From a bacterium (GTDB lineage: Bacteria; Auribacterota; UBA3054): a DNA stretch of 64,000 nt. Position numbers and translations under genes: made by a program. The notes beneath the pieces are model-generated. The model saw only the letters and a program-made list of their open reading frames with translations, ran no database searches and had not been told where the DNA came from. The stretch spans positions 1 through 64,000 of the forward strand of contig JAFZXZ010000017.1 of NCBI GenBank assembly GCA_017616555.1, written 5' to 3'. Below, one piece after another: positions 29,802 to 43,079 of the stretch; within the stretch, counting starts at the first letter, position 1; each line of letters starts with the position of its first letter.

Positions 29802-32324
29802 TTATTTGCGTCTGATAAGAGCCAGACCAAGGAGAGCGAGCAAGCCGAAGACAGCCGGTTCAGGAACAACGCTCACTTTGACGTTGTCGAACTGGATGTT
29901 GCCGGCGTAGGTCACGCACAGGCAGAAGAGGTTGCAGCCGGCGCCCTTGTAGTTGTCATTGATGTAGGCATCCACAGGATATTCAGAATTGTCGTCGATG
30001 GTGAATTCCGTGAGCAAGCCTTCCTTGTAGTCGATGACGTAGGAAACGTGCATCCAGTCTTCCGCGTATTCGGTCGTAGAGAACATGTAGTCGTTGGCAT
30101 GGTCGAGACCATAAACGATAGGAACGCCGTCCATGAAGTCGATGTCCAGCGTAATGTCCGCGGCGGACTGGTACATGCTGTTCTGCTTGAAGTAAATGAC
30201 TTCCCTGCCGATCAGGTCTTCTCTTTCGAAGATGGCGGGCGGGAGGAAGACATCGCAGTCGAACCTGACCATGCTGTTCTCGGGAACATCCAGGGCGTGG
30301 TAATAGCCGCCGTAGCCGCCGCCGATCTCGATCATCACGGTCTGGTTGTCGTTGGTGCTCATAACATAGGCAACGTTGGCGCCGGGGTTGTTGTCGCCCC
30401 AGTCGTCCTGGCCGGCAAATTCACCAAGCGCGAAGAACGGTTCTTCAAAGTCAGCGGAGTAATAGACGCCGCCAACCACGAAGGAAACGATGGTGGTAGT
30501 GCATCCGGCGTCGCCGGCGTTGAACACTACTCTGGAGCGGTAGTAGTTGTCACCCAAGCCTTCCCTGTCCACGGTGAACGTCACTTCCTGACTATCCTCA
30601 ACGGTGCCGCTGCTCGGGGAGACCGTAACGTTTTCGGCTAGATCGAGAACTTCAGCCGTGTAGTCGAAGGAGCCCTTGCCGCCGTTCAAGACATTCACAG
30701 CAGCGCTGTCGTTAACGCCAACAGATGCAGACAAGGGAACGATCATCTTAGCGTCCGCTTCCTTTTCGACTCTTTCAACCTTAATATTGTCGATGCCATG
30801 ATTGCATTCAAGAACACCGTTGGCGTTATCCCAGACGGCATATCCCCAGGAATTGTAGAAATGGGTGTCGGGCTGCTTGAGCTGCCAATTGGTGAAGTTC
30901 GTGACAACGCCGTCCCAGCCGAAACTGAGAAGCATATTGGCCTGGAGGTCGATGGTATATTCGACTGTGACCCACTTGTCGTAGGGGGCGATGGCGAAAT
31001 TCTTGATTTTCTTAGCGCCATTGTTCTTCTGAATGTTTACCAGATAGAAACCTTCGCCGCTTTCGTCTTTCGAAACATAATTCTCGAACTTCTCGTGGCT
31101 GTTTTTCTGCAGCATACAGACGTCGGTGGCCGTGCCGTCGGAGGGCCAATACACATCAAAGGAGACCTTCACCACAAGGTTTTCATACCAACAAGCTTGC
31201 GGAAGATACATGCTGCAGGCGTTGTTGCCGCCGGCACCGTAAATGAACATGCATTTGCCGCTGCAGTCGTAGGCGTTGGAGACGATAACGTCGCCCATGT
31301 CGAGCGTCCAGCCTCTCTGACCGACGATCGAGCCGTCTTCCATATCGTCGAATTTTTCTTCAAAAATTATGTTGCCTTTGGAGCACATGACGGAAACGAC
31401 TTTCGGTTCGCCGGCGCCGCCGGAAACAGTCATGCTGCCGCGGTAGAATCCGTCGGGCATGTCTTCCTTGGCTTTCAGGGTAAGAACGGTCGAATCGGTA
31501 AACGTGCCGCTGGTGGGGGTGACTTCCAGCCAATCGGCGTCGGTGGTGACGGTGAAGTTGATCTCGCCTTCGGAGGCGCCGTTGAAGAGCGTGAACTCCG
31601 CGCTGGTGGAATCCAGGGGAATGACCGCATCGCTGTCACAGAAAATGGTGGGCTCTTCGGCACGGGCCACGTTCTCGACCTTGACGAAATCATAATAGGT
31701 GCCGGTAGCGCCTTCGATCACACCGCCAAGATACGTGGAAAGGCGCATCCTCCACGGCTGTTCGAAAGTGGTTTCCAACATAATGGAGCATTCCTGAGTC
31801 TCGCCGTTGCAAGTCACAGACGTGATCTGGTTGTTGAGATGGTCGAAAACGACTGTGATCTCGTTGGGAGTCAAACCGTCGGTGTTGAAGTTTTCAAAGG
31901 TAACGCCGCCCGGACTGGAAGCCATCAAACCGTCCGCTGCGTTCAGGTGCAGATAGAAGAAGCGGCTCATGTTCTTATCGTAAAGCGCAATAAGGTCGGT
32001 ATTGGAACCGGAGACAACTTTCGTGGAGATCTTTGTGACTTCTTTGAGAGTGCTGGCAGGCGTGGTATCGAAAGTCGGAGTCAGGACCATAACATATTCG
32101 GTGGAGCCCGTATCGGACTGGCTCAGTACCATGGCCTTGGAATCAATGTTGGGAGCATTCGTCACGACCGTGGTGTTGCCGGTGTAGTTGTTGAAGATTT
32201 CCCAGCCTTCCTGTTCGGCCATCTGGGTGCCCACTTCGTAGCTTTCAAAATCTTCCTGATAGACGACGCCGGCAAAGACCGGAACGCAGACCAGGAGCAA
32301 TAGAGCTATGAGGATTCGTTTCAT
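29802..32324 (-). CDS. PEP-CTERM sorting-domain protein, paralogue 1 of 4
   Basis: An 840-residue member with a signal peptide ('MKRILIALLLLVCVPVFAG'), three LamG-like modules ('YQEDFESYEVGTQMAEQEGW', 'IFEEKFDDMEDGSIVGQRGW', 'YYSADFEEPFFALGEFAG'), a BACON-like domain ('ADWLEVTPTSGTF') and the C-terminal signal 'VPEPAVFGLLALLGLALIRRK'. The cysteines around 'SGKCMFIYGAGGNNACSMYLP' in the second module are shared by all four paralogues. It is the promoter-proximal gene of the array, divergent from the MoxR/Bat operon, with a weak -10 (TAGAAT at 32361-32366 on the minus strand) and its own terminator. An external carbohydrate-binding or adhesive role is only an inference. Confidence 0.84.
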   Translation of the reverse strand: MKRILIALLLLVCVPVFAGVVYQEDFESYEVGTQMAEQEGWEIFNNYTGNTTVVTNAPNIDSKAMVLSQSDTGSTEYVMVLTPTFDTTPASTLKEVTKISTKVVSGSNTDLIALYDKNMSRFFYLHLNAADGLMASSPGGVTFENFNTDGLTPNEITVVFDHLNNQITSVTCNGETQECSIMLETTFEQPWRMRLSTYLGGVIEGATGTYYDFVKVENVARAEEPTIFCDSDAVIPLDSTSAEFTLFNGASEGEINFTVTTDADWLEVTPTSGTFTDSTVLTLKAKEDMPDGFYRGSMTVSGGAGEPKVVSVMCSKGNIIFEEKFDDMEDGSIVGQRGWTLDMGDVIVSNAYDCSGKCMFIYGAGGNNACSMYLPQACWYENLVVKVSFDVYWPSDGTATDVCMLQKNSHEKFENYVSKDESGEGFYLVNIQKNNGAKKIKNFAIAPYDKWVTVEYTIDLQANMLLSFGWDGVVTNFTNWQLKQPDTHFYNSWGYAVWDNANGVLECNHGIDNIKVERVEKEADAKMIVPLSASVGVNDSAAVNVLNGGKGSFDYTAEVLDLAENVTVSPSSGTVEDSQEVTFTVDREGLGDNYYRSRVVFNAGDAGCTTTIVSFVVGGVYYSADFEEPFFALGEFAGQDDWGDNNPGANVAYVMSTNDNQTVMIEIGGGYGGYYHALDVPENSMVRFDCDVFLPPAIFEREDLIGREVIYFKQNSMYQSAADITLDIDFMDGVPIVYGLDHANDYMFSTTEYAEDWMHVSYVIDYKEGLLTEFTIDDNSEYPVDAYINDNYKGAGCNLFCLCVTYAGNIQFDNVKVSVVPEPAVFGLLALLGLALIRRK

Positions 32325-32453
32325 AATAACCTCGTTGGTTTTGGTTAAGAGATGTTAAAGATTCTATCTGTCAATAATGATATGAAAAAGCAACTTATAA
32401 ATAAATATCCCTAAAAAACAGCTTTTTTTATAGATAAAACACATGGAAAACCA

Positions 32454-32470
32454 TTTGTCATTTTGACAAA
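32454..32470. promoter_or_regulatory. Inverted repeat, candidate enhancer site for a sigma-54 activator
   Basis: TTTGTCA and TGACAAA form a perfect 7-bp inverted repeat around three T. Its centre is about 85 bp upstream of the start point predicted from the sigma-54 promoter, the usual place for a bacterial enhancer-binding protein site. The binding protein is unknown. Confidence 0.5.
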
Positions 32471-32520
32471 AAGCAGCGGCGGCAAAATTTTAAGTTATGT
32501 AAATATCGTGATTTATTTTT

Positions 32521-32536
32521 TGGCACGCTTTTTGCA
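32521..32536 (+). promoter_or_regulatory. Sigma-54 (-24/-12) promoter of the MoxR/Bat operon
   Basis: TGGCACG, four bases, TTGCA matches the RpoN consensus throughout, with the GG (32522-32523) and GC (32534-32535) separated by exactly 10 bp. The predicted transcription start is at about 32547, next to the ATG at 32548. Confidence 0.75.
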
Positions 32537-32547
32537 ATATGTTCGGC

Positions 32548-33414
32548 ATGCGTAAAACGATTTACATAATTGCAGTTTTCCTGCTGGCGCTGAGCGCGAG
32601 TTCGGAAGTAAGGTGGGAGATCCTTCCGGAGAGCACCAACGTCGTCTCAAAGAAGAGCACGCAGCTCATAATGACCGCTACGTGGACCGGCTATGAGACG
32701 ATCTCCGTGCGCACTCCCCGCTTTAAGGAATTGAAAGGCGCCCTGGTAAAAGACATCGTCAGCTACAACGAGTCGAAGCCGGGTGTTGGCGGGACGCAGC
32801 ATACCGCTACTTACCTGATCGATCTTCTTGTAACGAACGCCCCGGGAACGGTCGTCGAGACCGGATTGATCGAGGTCATGTCGAGAGGATTAGAGGACAG
32901 CGAATTCAGCAGTTCCGATCTGGCGGGCATAACTTTGAACGTTAAGAGCGCAAAGCTTCCATGGCTCGTTATCGCGGCCGCCCTTCTGATCGTCCTTGCC
33001 GCCGCGCTGGTTTTCGTCTTGAAAAAGAAAACGGCGAAAAAAAGCGCGGATCAGCCCGAACAGAACCTCGAGGAAGAATACCTCGTGAAGCTGGAGGAAA
33101 GCAGGGAGCTGAGGCTTAAGGGCGAGACCGCCGCCTACTTCGGCAAATGCGAAGAGCTCTTAAGAAGCTACCTGCGCGCCAAGTATTCCATCGCCGACCT
33201 CGACTCATTCGGGGAAAAGGAAGCTTTGAATAACGGCGTGGACCAGAGGATGGTGAGGACGGCCAAGGAAGTATGCGCCCTTTGTTTCAACGTGCGCTAC
33301 GCCGGCTACGAGCCCTCCGCCATGGAAGAAAAGCGCGCCTATGATTTTTTGAAAGAATTATTAATCCGTAACAAGCCCAACCGTCAAAAGGAAACGGATG
33401 AGCTTTACATCTAA
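32548..33414 (+). CDS. Single-pass membrane protein, first gene of the MoxR/Bat operon
   Basis: About 288 residues: a signal peptide ('MRKTIYIIAVFLLALSASS'), a periplasmic beta domain (about 20-140), one membrane helix ('LPWLVIAAALLIVLAAALVFVL') and a cytoplasmic helical domain ('GETAAYFGKCEELLRSYLRAKYSI'). The layout and C-terminal domain match the later 35842 gene and BatD/DUF4381-type proteins that accompany MoxR. I prefer the ATG at 32548 because the sigma-54 promoter predicts a transcript starting at about 32547, and the signal peptide begins there; an in-frame ATG at 32539 lies within the promoter. No ribosome binding site is visible, so the message may be leaderless. Function not recognised. 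Confidence 0.75.
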   Translation: MRKTIYIIAVFLLALSASSEVRWEILPESTNVVSKKSTQLIMTATWTGYETISVRTPRFKELKGALVKDIVSYNESKPGVGGTQHTATYLIDLLVTNAPGTVVETGLIEVMSRGLEDSEFSSSDLAGITLNVKSAKLPWLVIAAALLIVLAAALVFVLKKKTAKKSADQPEQNLEEEYLVKLEESRELRLKGETAAYFGKCEELLRSYLRAKYSIADLDSFGEKEALNNGVDQRMVRTAKEVCALCFNVRYAGYEPSAMEEKRAYDFLKELLIRNKPNRQKETDELYI

Positions 33415-33425
33415 AAGGAGAATTT

Positions 33426-34415
33426 ATGAATACAGACGTCAAACAGATCCAGGAACAGGTCCAGTCAGCCAGCGCTAAGTTTTCCGTGCTGCGCCAGGAG
33501 ATCTCGAACACAATCGTAGGGCAGAGCTACATGATCGACAGGCTTTTGATCGGCTTGCTGTCCAACGGGCACATTTTGTTGGAAGGCGTTCCGGGACTGG
33601 CCAAGACCTTGTGCGTTACGACGCTTGCCAAAGCCGTGAAAGCCGATTTCAAGCGCATCCAGTTCACGCCTGACCTTCTGCCCGCCGACCTTATCGGCAC
33701 TATGATCTACGATCCGAAGGAAGGCACCTTCAAGACCAAGAAAGGCCCGATCTTCGCTAATTTGATCCTGGCCGACGAGATCAACCGCGCCCCGGCCAAA
33801 GTGCAGAGCGCTCTTCTGGAAGCTATGCAGGAACACCAGGTGACGATAGGAGACCAGTCCTTCGCCCTGGACGAACCCTTCCTGGTCCTGGCCACCCAGA
33901 ACCCCATAGAGCAGGAAGGCACCTATCCCCTGCCGGAGGCGCAGGTGGACCGCTTCATGCTGAAACTTAAGATCACCTACCCCAACAAAAAAGAGGAAAA
34001 GGAGATCCAGCGCCGCATGGCCGCTACCAACGTGAAGTGCGAAGTCAATGAGATAATCACTCCGGAAGAGATCCTGGAAGCGAGAAAAATAGTCGATTCC
34101 ATCTACATCGACGAGAAAGTCAGCGACTACATCCTCGACATCATTTTCGCGACCAGAGAGCCGGAAGCCTACAAGCTCCCCTTCAAGGACTACATCCAGT
34201 ACGGCGCTTCGCCCCGCGCCACCATCGCGCTGACAATAGCCGCCAAGGCCCACGCCTTCCTGCAGGGCAGAGGCTTCGTGACGCCGCAGGACGTCAAGTC
34301 CATCGGCCCGGACGTCTTGCGCCACAGAGTTATAGTGAGCTACGAGGCGGAAGCGGAAGGCATGACTTCCGACGACCTCGTCCAGAAGATCTTCGACGAA
34401 GTGCAGGTGCCCTGA
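33426..34415 (+). CDS. moxR: MoxR family AAA+ ATPase
   Basis: A 329-residue AAA+ ATPase of the MoxR group, chaperone-like proteins that work with von Willebrand A (VWA) domain partners. Walker A is 'GVPGLAKT' (about 54-61), Walker B 'LADEINRAP' (about 113), and the pattern 'ATQNPIEQEGTYPLPEAQVDRFML' is the MoxR signature with sensor 1. The C-terminal lid contains 'YGASPRATIAL'. It has a good ribosome binding site (AAAGGAG) 11 bp after the first gene, and is followed by a DUF58 gene and two VWA genes, the standard MoxR/Bat arrangement. Confidence 0.95.
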   Translation: MNTDVKQIQEQVQSASAKFSVLRQEISNTIVGQSYMIDRLLIGLLSNGHILLEGVPGLAKTLCVTTLAKAVKADFKRIQFTPDLLPADLIGTMIYDPKEGTFKTKKGPIFANLILADEINRAPAKVQSALLEAMQEHQVTIGDQSFALDEPFLVLATQNPIEQEGTYPLPEAQVDRFMLKLKITYPNKKEEKEIQRRMAATNVKCEVNEIITPEEILEARKIVDSIYIDEKVSDYILDIIFATREPEAYKLPFKDYIQYGASPRATIALTIAAKAHAFLQGRGFVTPQDVKSIGPDVLRHRVIVSYEAEAEGMTSDDLVQKIFDEVQVP

Positions 34416-34453: not shown

Positions 34454-35335
34454 ATGTTATCCAAAGAACTGCTCCAGAAAGTCCGCCAGATCCAGATCAG
34501 GACCAGCCACCAGGTGACCGAGGTCATGGCCGGCGAATACAAGAGCGCCTTCAAAGGGCGCGGCATGGAGTTTGACGAAGTCAGGCTCTACCAGCCCGGC
34601 GACGACATCAGGACCATCGACTGGAACGTCACGGCCCGCACCGGCGTTCCGTACGTGAAGCGCTTCGTGGAAGAGCGCGAACTGACCGTCATGCTGATGG
34701 TGGACGCCAGCTCCTCCGGCGCCTTCGGTTCAGTAACTAAGAGCAAGAACGAGATCGCAGCCGAGATCGCGGGGCTTCTGGCCTACACCGCAATAAGGAG
34801 CAACGACAGAGTGGGGCTCATCATCTTTACGGATAGAATCGAGCTCTACATCCCGCCGAAGAAAGGCCACTCCCATGTCCTCCGCGTCATCAGGGAAGTT
34901 TTGGGCTTCAAGAAGAGCGAGCGCTCCAAAACGGACGTCGGCGCCGCCCTCGATTTCTTAAACAAAGTCTGCCGCAGGAAGGCCGTCGTCTTCCTTATCT
35001 CGGACTTTTTGTGCGAAGGCTTCGAGAAGCCGATAAACCTCGCCAGCAAGCGTCACGACCTCATTCCGGTCTCCGTTTCCGACCCGAGGGAAAGCTCGCT
35101 TCCGCCGATCGGCCTCATCACTCTCGAAGACGCCGAAACGGGCGAGACCATAACCGTTGACACCTACGACGCCAAAGTCCGCCGGACCTTGGAAAAACTC
35201 TCAGTAATGAGAAACGAGGAACGCGACAAAAGCTTCACGTCCTCCGGCGTGGACTCCATGCGCGTATCGACCAACGCCAACTACGGCGACGAGATCGTGC
35301 GCTTCTTCAAACGCCGGGAAAAAACCATTTTCTAA
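34454..35335 (+). CDS. DUF58 domain protein (VWA-like)
   Basis: A 293-residue cytoplasmic protein with the DUF58 signature near residue 40 ('RGMEFDEVRLYQPGDDIRTIDWNVTART') and a VWA-like core beginning 'VMLMVDASSSGAFGS'. The MIDAS-like DxSxS motif is present. DUF58 proteins are regular partners of MoxR ATPases, and this gene sits between moxR and the bat genes. AAGGAG precedes the ATG. The molecular role is not established for the family. Confidence 0.9.
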   Translation: MLSKELLQKVRQIQIRTSHQVTEVMAGEYKSAFKGRGMEFDEVRLYQPGDDIRTIDWNVTARTGVPYVKRFVEERELTVMLMVDASSSGAFGSVTKSKNEIAAEIAGLLAYTAIRSNDRVGLIIFTDRIELYIPPKKGHSHVLRVIREVLGFKKSERSKTDVGAALDFLNKVCRRKAVVFLISDFLCEGFEKPINLASKRHDLIPVSVSDPRESSLPPIGLITLEDAETGETITVDTYDAKVRRTLEKLSVMRNEERDKSFTSSGVDSMRVSTNANYGDEIVRFFKRREKTIF

Positions 35336-35339
35336 ACTT

Positions 35340-35840
35340 ATGTCAAAAATCATTTCCTTAATACAGATCCTTTGCTTCATACTGCTTCTCCTTATCGCCT
35401 ACAGGCTCTACTTCCCGCCCAAAGCGAACTGGACCGCCGAGCAGCAGAGAGCCCTGGCCATCACTTTGAGGACCAAAGGGCTCGATCTGCAGGCCGCCAA
35501 AGAGCTGCAGAAATACCTCTCCGACTACCCCGTTCCCGTAAAAGAGCGCCCGGGAGTATGCGTGACGATCGGCAACATCTATTACGACAAGCTTGATTTC
35601 GCCAACGCCGTCGCCTACTACTACCGCGCCGAAGCGTTAGACCCGACTTTTGCGAACGACAAGGACGTCCCGAGAAGAGTGGTCGATTCCCTAACGAAGC
35701 TGGGGCGCCAGAAAGAGGCCGCCGCCGCGAGGAAAAGATACACCGCCCTGGATCCCTCGCTCGACCAGAAGGAAGAAGTGAAGAATGAGAAGGAACCGGA
35801 AAAACCGGCTCAGGATGAAAATCTAAAAGAGGAAAAATAA
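35340..35840 (+). CDS. TPR-containing membrane-anchored protein of the Bat operon
   Basis: A 166-residue protein with one N-terminal membrane helix ('IISLIQILCFILLLLIAYRLYF') and a helical TPR-like domain ('AKELQKYLSDYP', 'GNIYYDKLDFANAVAYYYRAEALDP'). It ends in a Lys/Glu-rich tail. It starts four bases after the DUF58 stop and ends one base before the next ATG, so it is translated with its neighbours. It may be a small scaffold for the complex (inference); no closer family is recognised. Confidence 0.8.
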   Translation: MSKIISLIQILCFILLLLIAYRLYFPPKANWTAEQQRALAITLRTKGLDLQAAKELQKYLSDYPVPVKERPGVCVTIGNIYYDKLDFANAVAYYYRAEALDPTFANDKDVPRRVVDSLTKLGRQKEAAAARKRYTALDPSLDQKEEVKNEKEPEKPAQDENLKEEK

Positions 35841-35841
35841 C

Positions 35842-36819
35842 ATGCGTCATATTTGTCTGCTGATACTGCTGACCGCGGCTCTGATAGGCTGCCAGAAGAA
35901 GAAGGCCGAAAGCGCAGCCGCGCAAACGAGCGACCCCGTCGCCGTGAACGTCTTCGTGGACCGGCCGCAGGTCAGAGTGGGCGACCTTGTGAAATACACC
36001 ATCTCCGTCAACGCCCAGACCAACATCGACGTTCAGATGCCTGATTTCGCCGAGAACCTGGCGCCCATGGGCAGCCTCCTGATCCACGACTGGGAGAACC
36101 TCCCGGAAGAAAAACTGCCGGGCGGCCGCGTCGTAAGGAAACAGACCTACGAGCTGGAGACCTATCTGACGGGCGTCTATGAGATTCCGCCCGCGAAAGT
36201 GAATTTCGCCATTACGGGCCACACCAACACGCTCTATAGTTCCGCCCTCTGCGTAGAGGTCGTCTCCATCGCCAAGGAAGGCGAGATGACCGACATCAGG
36301 GACATCAAGGGCGTGGTTGAGCTGCTTTTGAAGGAAAAGAACAGAACGAAGATCATCATAGTGCTAGCCTCCCTGGCCGCCGTCGCGCTAGTTCTGCTTC
36401 TCTGCCTCAGAAAGAAAAAAGAAGCATCCGCGCCCCCTCCCGTCCCGGCCCACGTCAAGGCTTACGCAGCCCTGGAGGCTCTCCTTGCCGAAGGGCTCCT
36501 GGAAAAAGAACTTTACAAAGAATATTTCAGCCGTCTCTCCATCGTCTTGAGAACTTACATTGAAGACCGCTTCGAGATCCGCGCTCCGGAACTCACCACG
36601 GAGGAATTCCTCGCCATCCTTAGGCAGGATCCCAAGTTCACCTACGAACAGAGGGAAATGCTCCGCTCCTTCCTCATGGAGTGCGACATGATCAAATTCG
36701 CCAAGGGCGAGACCTCTCTTGAACTGGCGAAGGAAGCAACAAAGAACATCAAAAATTTCATCGAGCAGACAAAAGAGACCGCCGAACAGAAAGAAGAAAA
36801 AGAAGGAGGAAAGCAATGA
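35842..36819 (+). CDS. BatD-like/DUF4381-type lipoprotein with one membrane helix
   Basis: A 325-residue protein with a lipoprotein signal (lipobox 'ALIGC', Cys at about 17), a periplasmic Ig-like domain ('RPQVRVGDLVKYTISVNAQTNIDVQMPDF', about 36-150), a membrane helix near 175 ('IIIVLASLAAVALVLLLCL') and a cytoplasmic helical domain ('YKEYFSRLSIVLRTYIEDRF'), with a Glu/Lys-rich end. The arrangement matches the first gene of the operon. Proteins of this type are found between MoxR/DUF58 and the VWA genes. The stop overlaps the batA start (ATGA). Confidence 0.8.
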   Translation: MRHICLLILLTAALIGCQKKKAESAAAQTSDPVAVNVFVDRPQVRVGDLVKYTISVNAQTNIDVQMPDFAENLAPMGSLLIHDWENLPEEKLPGGRVVRKQTYELETYLTGVYEIPPAKVNFAITGHTNTLYSSALCVEVVSIAKEGEMTDIRDIKGVVELLLKEKNRTKIIIVLASLAAVALVLLLCLRKKKEASAPPPVPAHVKAYAALEALLAEGLLEKELYKEYFSRLSIVLRTYIEDRFEIRAPELTTEEFLAILRQDPKFTYEQREMLRSFLMECDMIKFAKGETSLELAKEATKNIKNFIEQTKETAEQKEEKEGGKQ

Positions 36820-37805
36820 TCCTTCACGACCCATATTGGCTCTTGCTTCTTTTGCTCATCCCTGTGATCCTTTGGGATGCGCTGAAAAAAACAGGCAAAG
36901 CCGGCGTCAGATACTCCGACATCAGCCTGCTTAAAAGAATAAGACCGACTTTAGCTGTCAGGCTCCGTCCCTTCATAGTCCTTTTGAGAGTGGCCGCCGT
37001 GGCATTACTGGCCATCGCTCTGGCCCGCCCTCAGAAAGGCAAAGAGGACACCAAAGTGACGACGGAAGGCATCGACATTATGCTGACCATCGACACCTCC
37101 GGATCAATGATCGCGGAAGACCTGGCCAAGGACCGCAGCAGGCTTGACGTGGTGAAAGAAGTGACCGCCGACTTCATCAAGCATCGCTCCAGCGACAGGA
37201 TCGGCCTCGTGGTTTACGGCGCCGACGCCTACACCCAGTGCCCCCTCACTCTGGACTACGGAACGCTTCTGACTCTCCTCGACCAGTGCGAGATCGGCAT
37301 GGCCGACCAAAGCGCCACCGCCATCGGCGACGCGCTAGCCACAGCGCTTCTTAGGCTGAAAGACTCCAGCGTCACGAGCAGAGTGGTCGTCCTGCTGACC
37401 GACGGTATGAACAACGCCGGCAAAATGGCGCCCATGGCCGTCGCGCAGAGCGCCAAGGCTCTAGGCGTCAAGATCTACACGATAGGCGCCGGCACAAGGG
37501 GCATGGCGCCCGTTCCCGGCACCGACTTCTTCGGCCGCAAGATCCTCCAGCAGGTCCCTGTCGAGATCGACGAGGATCTTCTGAAGAACATCGCCAAGAC
37601 CACAGGCGGCCAATATTTCCGCGCCACCGAGAAAGCCTCGCTTGAAAAGATCTATAAGGAAATAGATCAGCTCGAGAAGACCAAGACGGAATCTCTGACC
37701 TACATGGAATGGATAGAAAGATTCCCGGGACTCGTCTTCGCGGCCGCCGCTCTGCTTATCATCGAAACTCTGCTTTTGGCTACCAGGTTCCAAAAACTGC
37801 CATAA
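36816..37805 (+). CDS. batA: BatA-like VWA domain membrane protein
   Basis: A 329-residue inner-membrane protein with two N-terminal membrane helices, a VWA domain (about 85-270) and one C-terminal helix. The metal-ion-dependent adhesion site is intact: 'TIDTSGSM' (DxSxS), then 'GDALATALLRL' and 'LLTDGMNNAG'. In Bacteroides the Bat proteins are linked to aerotolerance, and in other bacteria to envelope stress; the role here is by family only. It overlaps the preceding gene by four bases and is followed by batB after ten. Confidence 0.92.
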   Translation: MILHDPYWLLLLLLIPVILWDALKKTGKAGVRYSDISLLKRIRPTLAVRLRPFIVLLRVAAVALLAIALARPQKGKEDTKVTTEGIDIMLTIDTSGSMIAEDLAKDRSRLDVVKEVTADFIKHRSSDRIGLVVYGADAYTQCPLTLDYGTLLTLLDQCEIGMADQSATAIGDALATALLRLKDSSVTSRVVVLLTDGMNNAGKMAPMAVAQSAKALGVKIYTIGAGTRGMAPVPGTDFFGRKILQQVPVEIDEDLLKNIAKTTGGQYFRATEKASLEKIYKEIDQLEKTKTESLTYMEWIERFPGLVFAAAALLIIETLLLATRFQKLP

Positions 37806-37815
37806 GGAGAATATT

Positions 37816-38838
37816 ATGTACTTTGAAAAACTTTACTATATACACCTTCTCTGGATCGTTATAGCCCTGGCGCTCTTTTTGTTCTACAGAGCGAGGAAAA
37901 GAAGATCCATGCTGGAACAGTTCGCCTCCAGGGAAATGCTCGACAAGCTTCTGACCAGAAGCGAGAGCGGGCGCCTCATTAAGATCTTCCTCTTCCTTTT
38001 GGGCCTCACGTTCCTGGTGCTTGCGCTTATGGAGCCGAAGTGGGGCTACACCTGGGAAGAGATGAAGAGAGAAGGCCGCGACATCATCGTCGCCGTGGAC
38101 GTTTCCAGGAGCATGCTGGCCCAGGATATCGCGCCAAGCAGGCTTGAGCGCGCCAAGCGCGCTATCCTTGACCTTATGCAGATCATGCAGGGCGACCGCA
38201 TCGGCTTGGTCGCTTTCGCCGGCAGCGCTTTCGTGCAGTGCCCGCTTACCCTTGACTACGGCGCGGCGAAGATGTTTTTATCTGAACTCGACCCTTCGCT
38301 CATTCCCAAGGGCGGAACGCAGATCGGCGAAGCCATAATAAAATCCGTCAACGCCTTCGAAGGCAATGAACGCAACACCAGGGCGCTGATACTTATAACA
38401 GACGGCGAGAACCTCCAGGGCGACCTCGACAACGCCATAAAAATGGCCAAGGAAAAAGGCATCAAGATCTTCTGCATCGGCATCGGAACGCCCAGCGGCA
38501 GCCCCATCCAGATAACGGATGAAAAGGGCCGCAAGACCTATATCACGGACCGCAGCGGCAACCAGGTGCTAAGCAAGCTCAACGAAGAAACACTCCAGAA
38601 GATCGCGCTGGAAACCGGCGGCGCCTACGCCCAGGCCGTCGCGTCCGGCCTGGAACTGGACGCCATCTATACGAAAAGGATCGCCAACATGGACACCAAA
38701 GAGCTCGATTCTTCCAAGAAGAAGCACTATGAGCACAGGTTCCAGTGGCCCTTGTGCGCCGCCTTCTTCTGCTTCTTTTTGCAGTCTTTAGTAAGCGAAG
38801 GCCAGAAAAAAACCGCCAAGGAAGGAGAAGCTGCATGA
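37816..38838 (+). CDS. batB: BatB-like VWA domain membrane protein
   Basis: A 340-residue paralogue of BatA with the same membrane topology. The MIDAS motif is 'VAVDVSRSMLAQDI', followed by 'GLVAFAGSAFVQCPLTLDYG', 'GGTQIGEAI' and 'LITDGENLQGD'. The C-terminus has a membrane helix ('WPLCAAFFCFFLQSLV'). BatA and BatB are thought to form a complex with BatC through its TPR domain. The stop overlaps the ATG of batC. Confidence 0.92.
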   Translation: MYFEKLYYIHLLWIVIALALFLFYRARKRRSMLEQFASREMLDKLLTRSESGRLIKIFLFLLGLTFLVLALMEPKWGYTWEEMKREGRDIIVAVDVSRSMLAQDIAPSRLERAKRAILDLMQIMQGDRIGLVAFAGSAFVQCPLTLDYGAAKMFLSELDPSLIPKGGTQIGEAIIKSVNAFEGNERNTRALILITDGENLQGDLDNAIKMAKEKGIKIFCIGIGTPSGSPIQITDEKGRKTYITDRSGNQVLSKLNEETLQKIALETGGAYAQAVASGLELDAIYTKRIANMDTKELDSSKKKHYEHRFQWPLCAAFFCFFLQSLVSEGQKKTAKEGEAA

Positions 38839-40484
38839 ATATGAAAAACATTCTTCTTATCTTCACCCTCTCGCTCTTAAGTTTCGCCGCTCCCCTTTAC
38901 GCTGCGGAAAGCAAGGAACTCGCGGCTAAGATCAGCGAAGGCAACAAGGCTTTCCAGAACGGAAATTTTCAGGAGGCCGAACAAAAGTACGCCGACGCCC
39001 AGATAGACGCCCCCGACAATCCCGAGGCTAATTACAACGCCGGCTTGGCTTGCTACCGCCTGGAAAAATACGATGAGGCGATCTCCGCTTTCCAAAGAGC
39101 CGCCAGCGGCGCCTCCACTGAACTGGAAGCCAAATGCCACTACAACATCGGCAACTGCCTCTTCCGCCAGGGCAAATTAAAAGAATCTCTCGAAAGCTAC
39201 AAGCGCGCCAACGAACTCGACCGCGACGACGAGGACACCAAAGCCAACATCGAGTACGTTACAAGACTGATGAAGGAATTGGCCAGCCAACAGAAAGACG
39301 AGCAGGAAAAAGATCCCCTGCAGAAACTCCTTCGCGAGCTTGAAGCGCTGATCAGGGCGCAGAACATTACCCTCATCAAGACCGCGAAAAGCCTTGAAAA
39401 AGGTACTGACATCCCGCCCGACTTCTTGGGCGGAATCATGACGAACCAGTACGCCCATTCAGAAAAAGCCGACTATCTCATCGTCGGGTTCCAGGCCCTT
39501 TTCACCAACCTGCCGCCTGAAAGGCTGCAGTCAAGTGGCGAAGCGCCGGCAACCCAAGGCTTGGAAAAAACGCCGGAAAACGAAGCGCTCATCGCCCTCT
39601 ACCAAACCTTCGCAAATGTGGGCCAGGGCCTCAGCCAGTGCATCCAGGGCGGCGTTCCCCAGACGGACGTCTTCCAGGCTTTGAGCAACCGCTTCCAGGA
39701 AGCCAGGGCGACGGCCGTCGGCCTCGTCTCGGAAAACATTTCGCCTTACGTCAACGACTTGTCCGGGCGCTGTGCGGAGGTCTTCAACAACTTCTACGAC
39801 CTCTCCTGCGACCTCTCGCTCCTGGACGCCCCAGCCCTGAAGGAATGCGCCGACAAATTCAATGCCATCGGCCAGGAACTGGTCAAGGAACTGAAGTCCC
39901 GCAGCGGCCAGAAGGACGAATCTGAAGGCGAAGAGAGTGAAGGCGAAGGCGAGGAAAAAGAGGAAGCTCTGCCCGCCGCCAGCTCCAAAACGCTCGCCAT
40001 GTGCATTACCAACGCCATAGAATATCTGAAGCTCGGCTCCGCTGCTAGCAAAACCGCTGAAGAAAAGCTGAAAAGCCTAATTACGGACGCGCCCACGAAC
40101 CAGTTCGTCGCCCTGGACAATTTCATCAAGGCGAGAAAAGAGTTCGAAGACGACGACCAGAAGAACAACGAAAAGCAGCAGCAGAATCAGCAGCAACAGC
40201 AGAACGACAATCAGAACCAGGATCAGCAGGATCAGCAGGATCAGAAAGATCAGCAGGACCAGGATCAGAATGAGAACCAGGACCAGAATCAGCAGCAACA
40301 GCAGCAAGAACAGCAGCAGGATCAAAACCAGGATCAGCAGCAGCAGGATCAGGAGAACAGCGAAGAGATGACCAAGGAACAGGCTGAACAGATGCTCCGC
40401 GCTTTCGAAGAGGATAATTCCGACAAAGAAAAGAACCGCAAGAAAATGCCGGGAGCGATCGTGCCTGTGGACAAAAACTGGTAA
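38835..40484 (+). CDS. batC: BatC-like TPR protein with Gln/Asp/Asn-rich tail
   Basis: About 549 residues. The start at 38835 is chosen because it overlaps the batB stop (ATGA) and begins a signal peptide ('MNMKNILLIFTLSLLSFAAPLYA'); an upstream in-frame ATG at 38745 lies inside batB. Three TPRs follow (about 25-150: 'GNKAFQNGNFQEAEQKYADA', 'AGLACYRLEKYDEAISAFQR', 'GNCLFRQGKLKESLESYKRA'), then a long helical region of about 270 residues not usual in BatC. The tail (about 440-520) is an extreme Gln/Asp/Asn-rich repeat. This suits a periplasmic scaffold in the Bat complex. Confidence 0.85.
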   Translation: MNMKNILLIFTLSLLSFAAPLYAAESKELAAKISEGNKAFQNGNFQEAEQKYADAQIDAPDNPEANYNAGLACYRLEKYDEAISAFQRAASGASTELEAKCHYNIGNCLFRQGKLKESLESYKRANELDRDDEDTKANIEYVTRLMKELASQQKDEQEKDPLQKLLRELEALIRAQNITLIKTAKSLEKGTDIPPDFLGGIMTNQYAHSEKADYLIVGFQALFTNLPPERLQSSGEAPATQGLEKTPENEALIALYQTFANVGQGLSQCIQGGVPQTDVFQALSNRFQEARATAVGLVSENISPYVNDLSGRCAEVFNNFYDLSCDLSLLDAPALKECADKFNAIGQELVKELKSRSGQKDESEGEESEGEGEEKEEALPAASSKTLAMCITNAIEYLKLGSAASKTAEEKLKSLITDAPTNQFVALDNFIKARKEFEDDDQKNNEKQQQNQQQQQNDNQNQDQQDQQDQKDQQDQDQNENQDQNQQQQQQEQQQDQNQDQQQQDQENSEEMTKEQAEQMLRAFEEDNSDKEKNRKKMPGAIVPVDKNW

Positions 40485-40495
40485 AATATCTCCCT

Positions 40496-42277
40496 ATGAA
40501 AAACACGATGAAAATAAAAGTCTTTTTCCTAACCATTATGCTGGCAATAGGCGCGCTGGCCGAAGTCAAAGTCTCGGCCACGTGCAGCCGCAAAGCCATC
40601 AGCATGGATGAATCGCTGCGCTACACCGTAACGGTGGAGAACGCCAAGAACGCCTCTCCCCCGCAATTGGGCGAGATGGACGGCTTTCGCGTGATCATGG
40701 GGCCCAGCCAGAGCAGCAACATCTCCATAGTGAACGGAGTGCAGTCTTCCTCCCAGGAATTCAGCTACGAACTGCAGGCAGTTAAGACAGGCAAACTGAC
40801 GATCGGAGAAGCGAAGATCAAAGCCGACGGCAAGACTTACAATCTGCCGAAGATAACGATCGATGTTTCAGAAGCGAGGAAAAGCTCCGCCAACTCCCCC
40901 GCCACCACGGAAACGGGCGGCGAACTCTTCCTGGAACTGGACGCCAGCACCACTAATACTTTCGTAGGCGAACAGATCTTCCTGACGATCACGCTCTACT
41001 ATAAAGACCTCAATCTCTCCGGCGCCAACCAGCCGGAACTGCAATTCGCGGGCTTCAACGCCCAGGACATCGGCAATTACCAGCAGGACCGCCAGCGCTA
41101 CCGCGGCCAGATCTACAACTACCTGCGCTTCCAGAAACTCATAATCCCCCTGAAAGCCGGCAAACTCTCGCTCGGGCCCGCCAACATGCGGGTGTCTGTG
41201 AACGTTCCCGTATCCAGAAGAAGCCGCTCAAGGGATCCCTTTGACGATCCTTTCAGCTTTTTCCAGAACTACCGCACCGTTGAGAAGAACGTCGTTTCCG
41301 AACCGCTTGTTTTCAACGTTAAAAATCTGCCGACTCAGAACAAGCCGAAAGATTTCAAAGGCGCCGTCGGGCGTTTCGCCCTGGACGCCGACGTCACGCC
41401 CAAGAAAGTCAAGGAAGGCGAACCTGTCACGCTTAAATTAACTTTGACAGGCATCGGCAACATCGACCAGGCCATGGTCGATCTTTCCAGCACCAACGTT
41501 ACTGGCTTCACGGTTTACGATCCTGTAGTGGACAAGAAGACGAGCGTTTCGGACGGTGTGCTGAAGGGCATCAAAAATTACAGCCAAATGTGGGTGCCCT
41601 TGAGCGCTGACATAAAAGAACTGCCCGCCGTCTCCTTCTCATATTTCGACACCGCCAAAAACGATTACCAGACTCTTACCGCCGGGCCATTCCCCTTAAC
41701 TGTGGAAAAATCCGCCCAGAGCCAGAAGGTGACGGTCTCTGAAGCAATTCCCGTGCAGAGAGGCGGCTCCCCCACCATCAAGATCTTAAACCAGGATATC
41801 TTCGGCATCAAACTGGAACGCGGTGAAGACGCCTTGTCCTCCATACGCGACAAGCGCCTGCTCGTCATAGCCGCCATGCTTCCGCCGGTCATATTCCTAC
41901 TCTGCGCCCTTATCGCCTACAAGCGCAGTAAAGAGGAAGACCCGAGCTTCAAGAGAAAAAGCCAGGCCTACTCGATTGCCGAGCAGAACTTGAAGAAAGC
42001 GAAAAAACTCAAAGGCAAGCCGGAAGCTATCAAGGAATTCTGCGGCTATCTCTCGGCCGCCCTCAACGACTACGTCGCCGACACCCTGGATCTCCCCAAG
42101 GGCTCCATCAGCGCCGACACCATAGAGGACGCCAAACTGAAAAAAGACTGGCAGGATCTCATGACAAGGATAGAAATGGCGCGCTTCGCCGGCAACTACG
42201 GACCCAAGTGCGATAACGACCAATTGCTTAGTGACACCTCCATCCTCTTGAAAGAATTAAGGAGGACTTTGAAATGA
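40496..42277 (+). CDS. batD: BatD-like oxygen-tolerance family protein
   Basis: A 593-residue protein with an N-terminal signal sequence (about 1-22), several beta-sandwich repeats ('SRKAISMDESLRYTVTVENAKNASPP', 'FVGEQIFLTITLYYKDL', 'VKEGEPVTLKLTLTGIGNIDQ'), a membrane helix near residue 465 ('LLVIAAMLPPVIFLLCALIAY') and a cytoplasmic helical domain like those of the two smaller BatD-like proteins in this operon. This is the standard BatD layout. The large part would be periplasmic. Its stop overlaps the next gene by four bases. Confidence 0.9.
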   Translation: MKNTMKIKVFFLTIMLAIGALAEVKVSATCSRKAISMDESLRYTVTVENAKNASPPQLGEMDGFRVIMGPSQSSNISIVNGVQSSSQEFSYELQAVKTGKLTIGEAKIKADGKTYNLPKITIDVSEARKSSANSPATTETGGELFLELDASTTNTFVGEQIFLTITLYYKDLNLSGANQPELQFAGFNAQDIGNYQQDRQRYRGQIYNYLRFQKLIIPLKAGKLSLGPANMRVSVNVPVSRRSRSRDPFDDPFSFFQNYRTVEKNVVSEPLVFNVKNLPTQNKPKDFKGAVGRFALDADVTPKKVKEGEPVTLKLTLTGIGNIDQAMVDLSSTNVTGFTVYDPVVDKKTSVSDGVLKGIKNYSQMWVPLSADIKELPAVSFSYFDTAKNDYQTLTAGPFPLTVEKSAQSQKVTVSEAIPVQRGGSPTIKILNQDIFGIKLERGEDALSSIRDKRLLVIAAMLPPVIFLLCALIAYKRSKEEDPSFKRKSQAYSIAEQNLKKAKKLKGKPEAIKEFCGYLSAALNDYVADTLDLPKGSISADTIEDAKLKKDWQDLMTRIEMARFAGNYGPKCDNDQLLSDTSILLKELRRTLK

Positions 42278-43041
42278 AAAAGATCCTGACATTGCTTTTC
42301 ATCGTAGCTTTTGCAGTCGCGGCTAAAGCGAGTTCGTTTGAAGCCGCGAAGTATTTCGCCCAGGGCAATTCCGCTTACACGAACCAGAATTACCAGGAAG
42401 CGATCGCTTGCTACACGCGCTCCGCAAAAGAAGGCCTCTCCTCCCCCGCTTTGAGCTACAATCTCGCCAACGCTTATTATAAGTCCGGCGACCTTGGCAA
42501 CGCCATCGCCTGCTACAGAAGAGCCGAGCTTTTCGCCCCCAGGGACGCCGACACTTCCGCCAATCTTTCCCGCGCTTTGAGCCAGACCGAGGACAACATC
42601 GCGAGGAAGGAAGTCCCCTCCGCCATAAGGTCCTTCTTCTTCCTCTACTTCTACCTCGGGATCATGGAGCAGCTGACGGTCGCCATTGTTTCCTGGATCA
42701 TAGGCTGGTTTGCGCTTTCCGTTTTCATCGTTTCAAGAAAGCCCGGCCTCAGGAGCGCCATGAAAAAATTCGCGATCTTCTTCTTCATCGTCGCAGCGCT
42801 CTTTTCGGCCTCCTTTCTCCACAAATACTACGACGCTTCGCACCAGGGCGTGATAGTTGCGGAGGAAGCAAGGATCCACGCCGGACCCGACGCCTCTTAC
42901 ACCGAGATCTTCGTTTTGAAGAACGGTTCGGAAGTGAAGGTGACAGGCTTTGAAGGCAATTGGGTGAAGATCCTGGTCAGCCAGGAGGAAGGAAGCCAGG
43001 CCGGCTGGCTGGAAAGCAGCCAGATAAAAACGATCCTCTGA
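42274..43041 (+). CDS. batE: BatE-like TPR and SH3-domain membrane protein
   Basis: A 255-residue protein: signal peptide ('MKKILTLLFIVAFAVAAKA'), two or three TPRs (about 20-100: 'GNSAYTNQNYQEAIACYTRSAKEG', 'LANAYYKSGDLGNAIACYRRAEL'), two membrane helices (about 125-185) and a C-terminal bacterial SH3 domain ('EEARIHAGPDASYTEIFVLKNG'). This corresponds to BatE. It is the last gene of the operon, translationally coupled to batD, and is followed by a strong terminator. Confidence 0.88.
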   Translation: MKKILTLLFIVAFAVAAKASSFEAAKYFAQGNSAYTNQNYQEAIACYTRSAKEGLSSPALSYNLANAYYKSGDLGNAIACYRRAELFAPRDADTSANLSRALSQTEDNIARKEVPSAIRSFFFLYFYLGIMEQLTVAIVSWIIGWFALSVFIVSRKPGLRSAMKKFAIFFFIVAALFSASFLHKYYDASHQGVIVAEEARIHAGPDASYTEIFVLKNGSEVKVTGFEGNWVKILVSQEEGSQAGWLESSQIKTIL

Positions 43042-43045
43042 TAAA

Positions 43046-43079
43046 GAAAAAACGCGCGCCTTGCGGCGCGCGTTTTTTT
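43046..43079. terminator. Bidirectional terminator between the Bat operon and metY
   Basis: A 10-bp stem AACGCGCGCC/GGCGCGCGTT with a TTGC loop is flanked by A7 and T7. Confidence 0.88.

Follow-up and report, generated by a model that had tools for sequence, protein, structure and literature searches.

What switches on a ten-gene MoxR/Bat operon whose first ATG lies immediately behind a sigma-54-type promoter, and where would its message begin? Operons of the Bat/MoxR type occur widely, and little is understood of what they do and how they are controlled. The first-pass annotation of the stretch of DNA analysed here (64,000 nucleotides, hereafter the window) had placed the whole operon under an enhancer-binding protein (EBP) and had taken its first message to be leaderless. 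Our analysis supports both parts of this reading, which we infer from sequence: with a probability of about 0.75, the locus belongs to a sigma-54 envelope-stress regulon with a leaderless Bat mRNA, a class B EBP being the most probable activator. The hosts are a group of uncultured bacteria, some of them from the rumen; the genome that contains the window amounts to 1.66 Mb and is 84% complete.

Operon layout and predicted start

The operon shows the Bat/MoxR order (moxR, DUF58, the VWA genes of BatA and BatB, TPR, BatD), and the earlier count of ten genes is right, gene 10 ending at 43041 ahead of a terminator-like hairpin. We compared its upstream region at 14 orthologous loci, eight in the genus and six in other families of the order. 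The features of the window are as follows.

32454 to 32470, no strand assigned: palindrome TTTGTCATTTTGACAAA, predicted EBP (sigma-54 activator) site; core kept at 14 of 14 loci
32521 to 32536, + strand: sigma-54 (-24/-12) promoter TGGCACG-CTTT-TTGCA, from a motif scan; present at 14 of 14 loci
32547 or 32548, + strand: predicted transcription start (C 32547 or A 32548, first base of the ATG), from the -12 rule
32548 to 33414, + strand: gene 1, membrane protein with a signal peptide and a single pass (DUF4381 matches weakly); its start is predicted to be leaderless
33426 to 34415, + strand: gene 2, MoxR-type AAA+ ATPase (PF00158, the AAA+ model, matches weakly; we take the family to be MoxR)
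34454 to 35335, + strand: gene 3, DUF58 protein with a VWA-like fold (Pfam)
35340 to 35840, + strand: gene 4, 166 aa, weak TPR matches under the Pfam cut-off
35842 to 36819, + strand: gene 5, 325 aa, no Pfam match
36816 to 37805, + strand: gene 6, BatA-type VWA protein
37816 to 38838, + strand: gene 7, BatB-type VWA protein
38745 to 40484, + strand: gene 8, TPR protein (BatC-like); mechanical ORF start, the true start probably lying further downstream
40496 to 42277, + strand: gene 9, BatD
42274 to 43041, + strand: gene 10, TPR-SH3 protein
43053 to 43073, + strand: terminator-like hairpin with a T-run, end of the operon

Sigma-54 promoters begin transcription about 12 bp past their GC. The promoter described by the first-pass annotation is indeed present, with TGGCACG at 32521-32527, CTTT, and TTGCA at 32532-32536, and its GG-N10-GC spacing is exact (GG at 32522-32523, GC at 32534-32535), in agreement with the consensus TGGCAC-N5-TTGCA/T. 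It is the sole zero-mismatch sigma-54 match that the motif scan returned within the window; the ten matches with up to two mismatches correspond to the chance level, so that only the perfect site is meaningful. Setting -12 at C 32535 gives a predicted +1 at 32547, adjoining the ATG at 32548 as had been proposed, and the promoter scan found no forward sigma-70 promoter above threshold 5' of this ATG. The TTTGTCA-N3-TGACAAA repeat was likewise recovered, centred at 32462, 85 bp before 32547; TTTGTCATTTTGACAAA is the single perfect site both in the window and in the genome, where one further site with one mismatch occurs. The divergently oriented gene of an 840-aa BACON-domain protein has an upstream block of its own (AAATATCCTTAAAAAACAG, window 32324-32450), conserved genus-wide, which is probably the promoter of that gene or another regulatory site.

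The claim that no ribosome binding site precedes the ATG at 32548 was confirmed, although a Shine-Dalgarno (SD) sequence does precede moxR and several further operon genes, anti-SD pairing reaching -6 to -12 kcal/mol for most operon genes with a typical start. Upstream of gene 1, this pairing is weak at 12 of the 14 loci, including our own; L052 and L056 show moderate SD-like pairing (-5.9), which would sit upstream of the predicted start. The gap between the TGCW of the promoter and the ATG is 11, 12, or 13 nt at all 14 loci, with differing bases inside it, and the predicted start therefore falls 0-3 nt from the ATG; with a start at the AUG, gene 1 must be translated as a leaderless message. 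Leaders of 45-70 nt are predicted for other sigma-54 genes of these genomes (e.g., 45 nt for clpB and 49 nt for dnaK). An in-frame ATG at 32539 (MFGMRK...), 5' of the predicted start, was rejected as translation start because it is unconserved and the orthologues align from 32548; the next in-frame ATG past 32548 is behind the signal peptide. The Bat mRNA would thus be leaderless, as judged from sequence.

Conservation and further palindrome sites

Gene 1 has orthologues in all eight genomes of the genus and in seven other genomes of the order; the 14 loci compared are those for which upstream sequence exists. Aligning the upstream regions, we found the promoter and a GTCA-N3-TGAC core in all seven other genus genomes and in six genomes of other families; both are therefore found at 14 of 14 loci belonging to four families, and the loss in close relatives that the first-pass annotation had named as contrary evidence was not seen. 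Outside the family of our genome, the upstream neighbour genes differ, yet promoter and palindrome core remain. The distance from the palindrome centre to the -12 C is 73 in the genus and 96-110 elsewhere, and strict helical phase is absent. When the compound pattern palindrome-N40..100-promoter was searched in 44 genomes of the phylum, 16 matches were obtained, 14 of them at the Bat operon, in as many genomes of the order; the remaining two belong to an htrA-like gene (G011) and a Ycf48-like gene (G040). Reversing the pattern as a control gave no match in these 44 genomes. Under a first-order Markov null drawn from a locus's own 200 bp, the palindrome has a chance of about 1e-4 to 2e-3 per locus; a sigma-54 site at leaderless spacing has a chance of at most 3.5e-4 (Markov null, own 200 bp). 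The loci being related, these per-locus chances are not independent. For the palindrome by itself, the excess of one-mismatch matches over the control is small at the level of the order.

Searches of the genus genomes that allowed up to one mismatch placed one palindrome at Bat and, for seven of the eight, another ahead of a gliding-type ABC transporter operon; near its Bat locus, G005 has an additional one-mismatch copy. The ABC operon has a conserved sigma-54 promoter, CGGCAYGnTTTTTGCT, followed by the palindrome centred at about +24 to +36, and this promoter-then-palindrome pattern matches the operon in all eight genus genomes as well as the orthologous operon of G011. In some species, the palindrome adjoins a TATAAT; in our own genome, it comes directly after TGCTATAAT. 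We rejected a plain sigma-70 operator at TGCTATAAT, as TATAAT is absent in four of the eight genus genomes and the GG-N10-GC promoter is conserved. Lying 3' of a sigma-54 promoter, the palindrome might also serve repression here. FleQ is known to activate from sites located downstream; a search for FleQ-type downstream sites returned nothing useful. Two other matches with a downstream palindrome (G010:C354 and G040:C3) are inside coding sequence and look like chance.

In G011, an htrA/degP-like gene (G011:C80, L217) has both the palindrome and a sigma-54 promoter and is likely a further member of the palindrome regulon. Outside the order, the gene of a Ycf48-like secreted protein (G040:C38, L212) has a double palindrome, one copy of which is imperfect, and a sigma-54 promoter merely 16 nt before its ATG.

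In family f3, each of three genomes contains two predicted sigma-54-dependent small RNAs of about 57-90 nt.

L196, L206, L251, L258, L268, L284 (in G009, G013, and G014): predicted small-RNA loci

At these loci, the palindrome is located 118-122 nt upstream of the sigma-54 promoter. The predicted RNAs contain GTTTTTTCATGGTTTCTCCTCC, which is an SD-spacer-AUG-AAA-AAA region in reverse complement, followed by a terminator stem; their anti-SD/anti-start sequence is CAUGGUUUCUCCUCC. The terminator stem covaries, four pairs being changed on both sides among six aligned sequences (four of them transcribed by hand from their loci), and a comparison of the predicted RNAs with Rfam gave no match at the gathering score. 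The same sequence also occurs without a sigma-54 site, mostly where genes of exported-type proteins begin, these genes being the expected targets; such genus-wide matches were rejected as small RNAs, being ordinary gene starts. The Bat, ABC transporter, htrA, and small-RNA loci thus have a sigma-54 promoter and the palindrome in common, and the inducing signal may come from the envelope.

Candidate activators and rival explanations

A search for rpoN returned one complete RpoN in the genome (RpoN box ARRTVVKYRE), in line with the first-pass reading, and a profile search returned four strong PF00158 proteins, all four classes having orthologues at the level of the order.

Class A EBP, G000:C17:275287: in a kinase-EBP operon with uppS and cdsA
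Class B EBP, G000:C30:68016: in a histidine kinase-EBP pair directly before lgt
Class C EBP, C17:5042: with a GAF-like front
Class D EBP, G000:C30:185854: adjoining rseP and dxs

The class B gene is followed by lgt in every genome with a long enough contig, and lnt is linked to them in the genus. Its recognition helix reads GLKT(L/I)YRK in families f1, f3, and f4, where the half-site is TGTCA; in family f2, the helix reads GTKT or GAKT, and the half-site is GGTCA at Bat and ABC and CGTCA at htrA. Class B is the sole EBP class whose helix changes together with the half-site, a co-variation seen on one branch, in two genomes. We put the chance that class B is the activator at about one half, and at about one quarter for class A. 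In the mechanism that we favour, an envelope (perhaps lipoprotein) fault would lead the kinase to phosphorylate an NtrC-type EBP, most probably class B, which would bind TTTGTCA-N3-TGACAAA at about -85 and reach the sigma-54 polymerase through DNA looping. The polymerase would then transcribe all ten genes from the promoter at 32521-32536, starting at 32547/32548, and the first message would be translated from its 5'-terminal AUG. The regulon would be small: the Bat operon and the ABC transporter, to which relatives would add htrA or anti-initiation small RNAs.

The strongest rival keeps the promoter and the leaderless start and has another EBP as activator, most likely class A or class D; we consider it a serious contender, at somewhat less than even odds. 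Both proteins are encoded among envelope genes in our genome. In G010:C375 (L150, position 1806), a perfect TTGTCAAGTTGACAA overlaps the -35 of TTGACA-N17-TACAAT, the promoter of the class A kinase-EBP operon; this suggests negative autoregulation or cross-regulation and makes class A a possible binder of the palindrome. Against it, class A was not found in G011 (about 80% complete) despite three palindrome-sigma-54 sites in that genome, and its helix varies within the genus where the palindrome is constant. The helix of class D is well conserved, which speaks for it, yet it stays unchanged where the half-site changes. A bolder version of the class B reading, which we regard as tentative and rather doubtful, describes an order-wide sigma-54 envelope-stress response in which the kinase-EBP pair tied to lgt (and to lnt in the genus) would activate not only the leaderless Bat mRNA but, in some families, also small RNAs pairing with the whole SD-spacer-AUG-AAA-AAA region of exported-protein mRNAs. 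Devoid of SD and leader, the Bat mRNA would then escape the small-RNA block, and this escape would be what the leaderless layout of the promoter is for.

It is unlikely that the promoter is real and the message nevertheless leadered, through an unrecognised upstream promoter or non-SD initiation, the spacing being kept for some other reason. An upstream sigma-70 promoter under the scan threshold would yield such a message, and the SD-like pairing at two of the 14 loci fits it; the scan, however, returned no forward sigma-70 promoter, the gap of 11-13 nt is kept although its bases change, and SD is missing at most loci though used elsewhere in the operon. Less probable still is a repressor without any relation to sigma-54, which would use the palindrome as its operator, the nearness of this site to both promoters being a coincidence. 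The repressor-like placement right after TGCTATAAT in the ABC operon of our genome would suit this explanation, but the GG-N10-GC promoter and the palindrome persist in the four genus genomes lacking TATAAT, and the Bat, ABC, htrA, and small-RNA loci all combine the two elements. Finally, loose sigma-54 matches are frequent in the window, and two consensus matches could in principle have met by chance; since all 14 loci conserve both and the reversed controls are empty, we consider the odds of this negligible. The preferred reading thus stays that of an EBP-activated, leaderless Bat message, most probably under class B.

Known systems and other sigma-54 promoters

As the first-pass annotation had supposed, a literature search (open-access text only) found no described RpoN control of a Bat/MoxR operon. 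The locus resembles sigma-54 promoters under NtrC-type EBPs in its GG-N10-GC element, its rpoN, its EBPs with two-component partners, and its inverted repeat about 85-120 bp upstream; it differs from the usual systems in that a MoxR/Bat operon is driven and that the start codon comes 11-13 nt past the -12 element. The predicted DVU2894 and FlrA sites read GTCA-N6-TGAC (PMC4641369), whereas the spacing here is GTCA-N3-TGAC. Sigma-54 has been linked to cell-envelope functions by Francke et al. (2011, PMC3162934), who do not mention MoxR, BatA, or a leader.

The Bat (aerotolerance)/MoxR-VWA operons of Leptospira and Borrelia likewise comprise moxR, DUF58, two VWA genes, TPR, and BatD. For the Bat genes of L. 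biflexa, independent promoters were inferred and a stress function was not found (PMC3557215); in B. burgdorferi, rpoN was measured beside bat-like genes, and the part of that report covered here (PMC5700661) gives no RpoN promoter. In contrast, a single conserved sigma-54 promoter heads the whole operon in our genomes. Leaderless genes mapped by dRNA-seq also lack an SD, and their ATG coincides with the start (a predicted start in our case) or lies no more than 3 nt from it. Those of B. japonicum have an extended -10 motif upstream, and the authors state that specific promoters are undescribed for such genes (PMC4842269); here, the promoter is of the sigma-54 type and its spacing is kept order-wide. 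The small RNAs GlmY and GlmZ act within an envelope circuit (PMC7073468), whereas those predicted in the relatives of our genome include a sequence complementary to an initiation region and, at gathering scores, match nothing in Rfam. The elements are of known kinds, and their combination and conservation are new as far as we found. A link of the Bat operon to sigma-54, shared by htrA, an ABC exporter, and small RNAs, allows a role in the envelope to be tested; the locus would also be an order-wide case in which the position of a sigma-54 promoter lets transcription and translation begin together, and a sigma-54-type promoter for leaderless genes is not described in the mapping literature that we compared (e.g., PMC4842269).

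Sigma-54 promoters were also found in our genome before clpB, dnaK, the gene upstream of clpC, and accB.

C2:4560, C9:15037, C17:383860 in our genome (L010, L017, L035), and L244, L246, L255, L260: sigma-54 promoters of chaperone genes (dnaK, clpB, gene upstream of clpC)

Core chaperone genes thus seem to be sigma-54 controlled in the genus and partly in the order, their leaders being of the usual kind, 45-67 nt long. Four further sigma-54 promoters (L252, L253, L239, L240) precede a large glutamine-synthetase-like gene, identified as such from its sequence, and are consistent with a separate nitrogen regulon.
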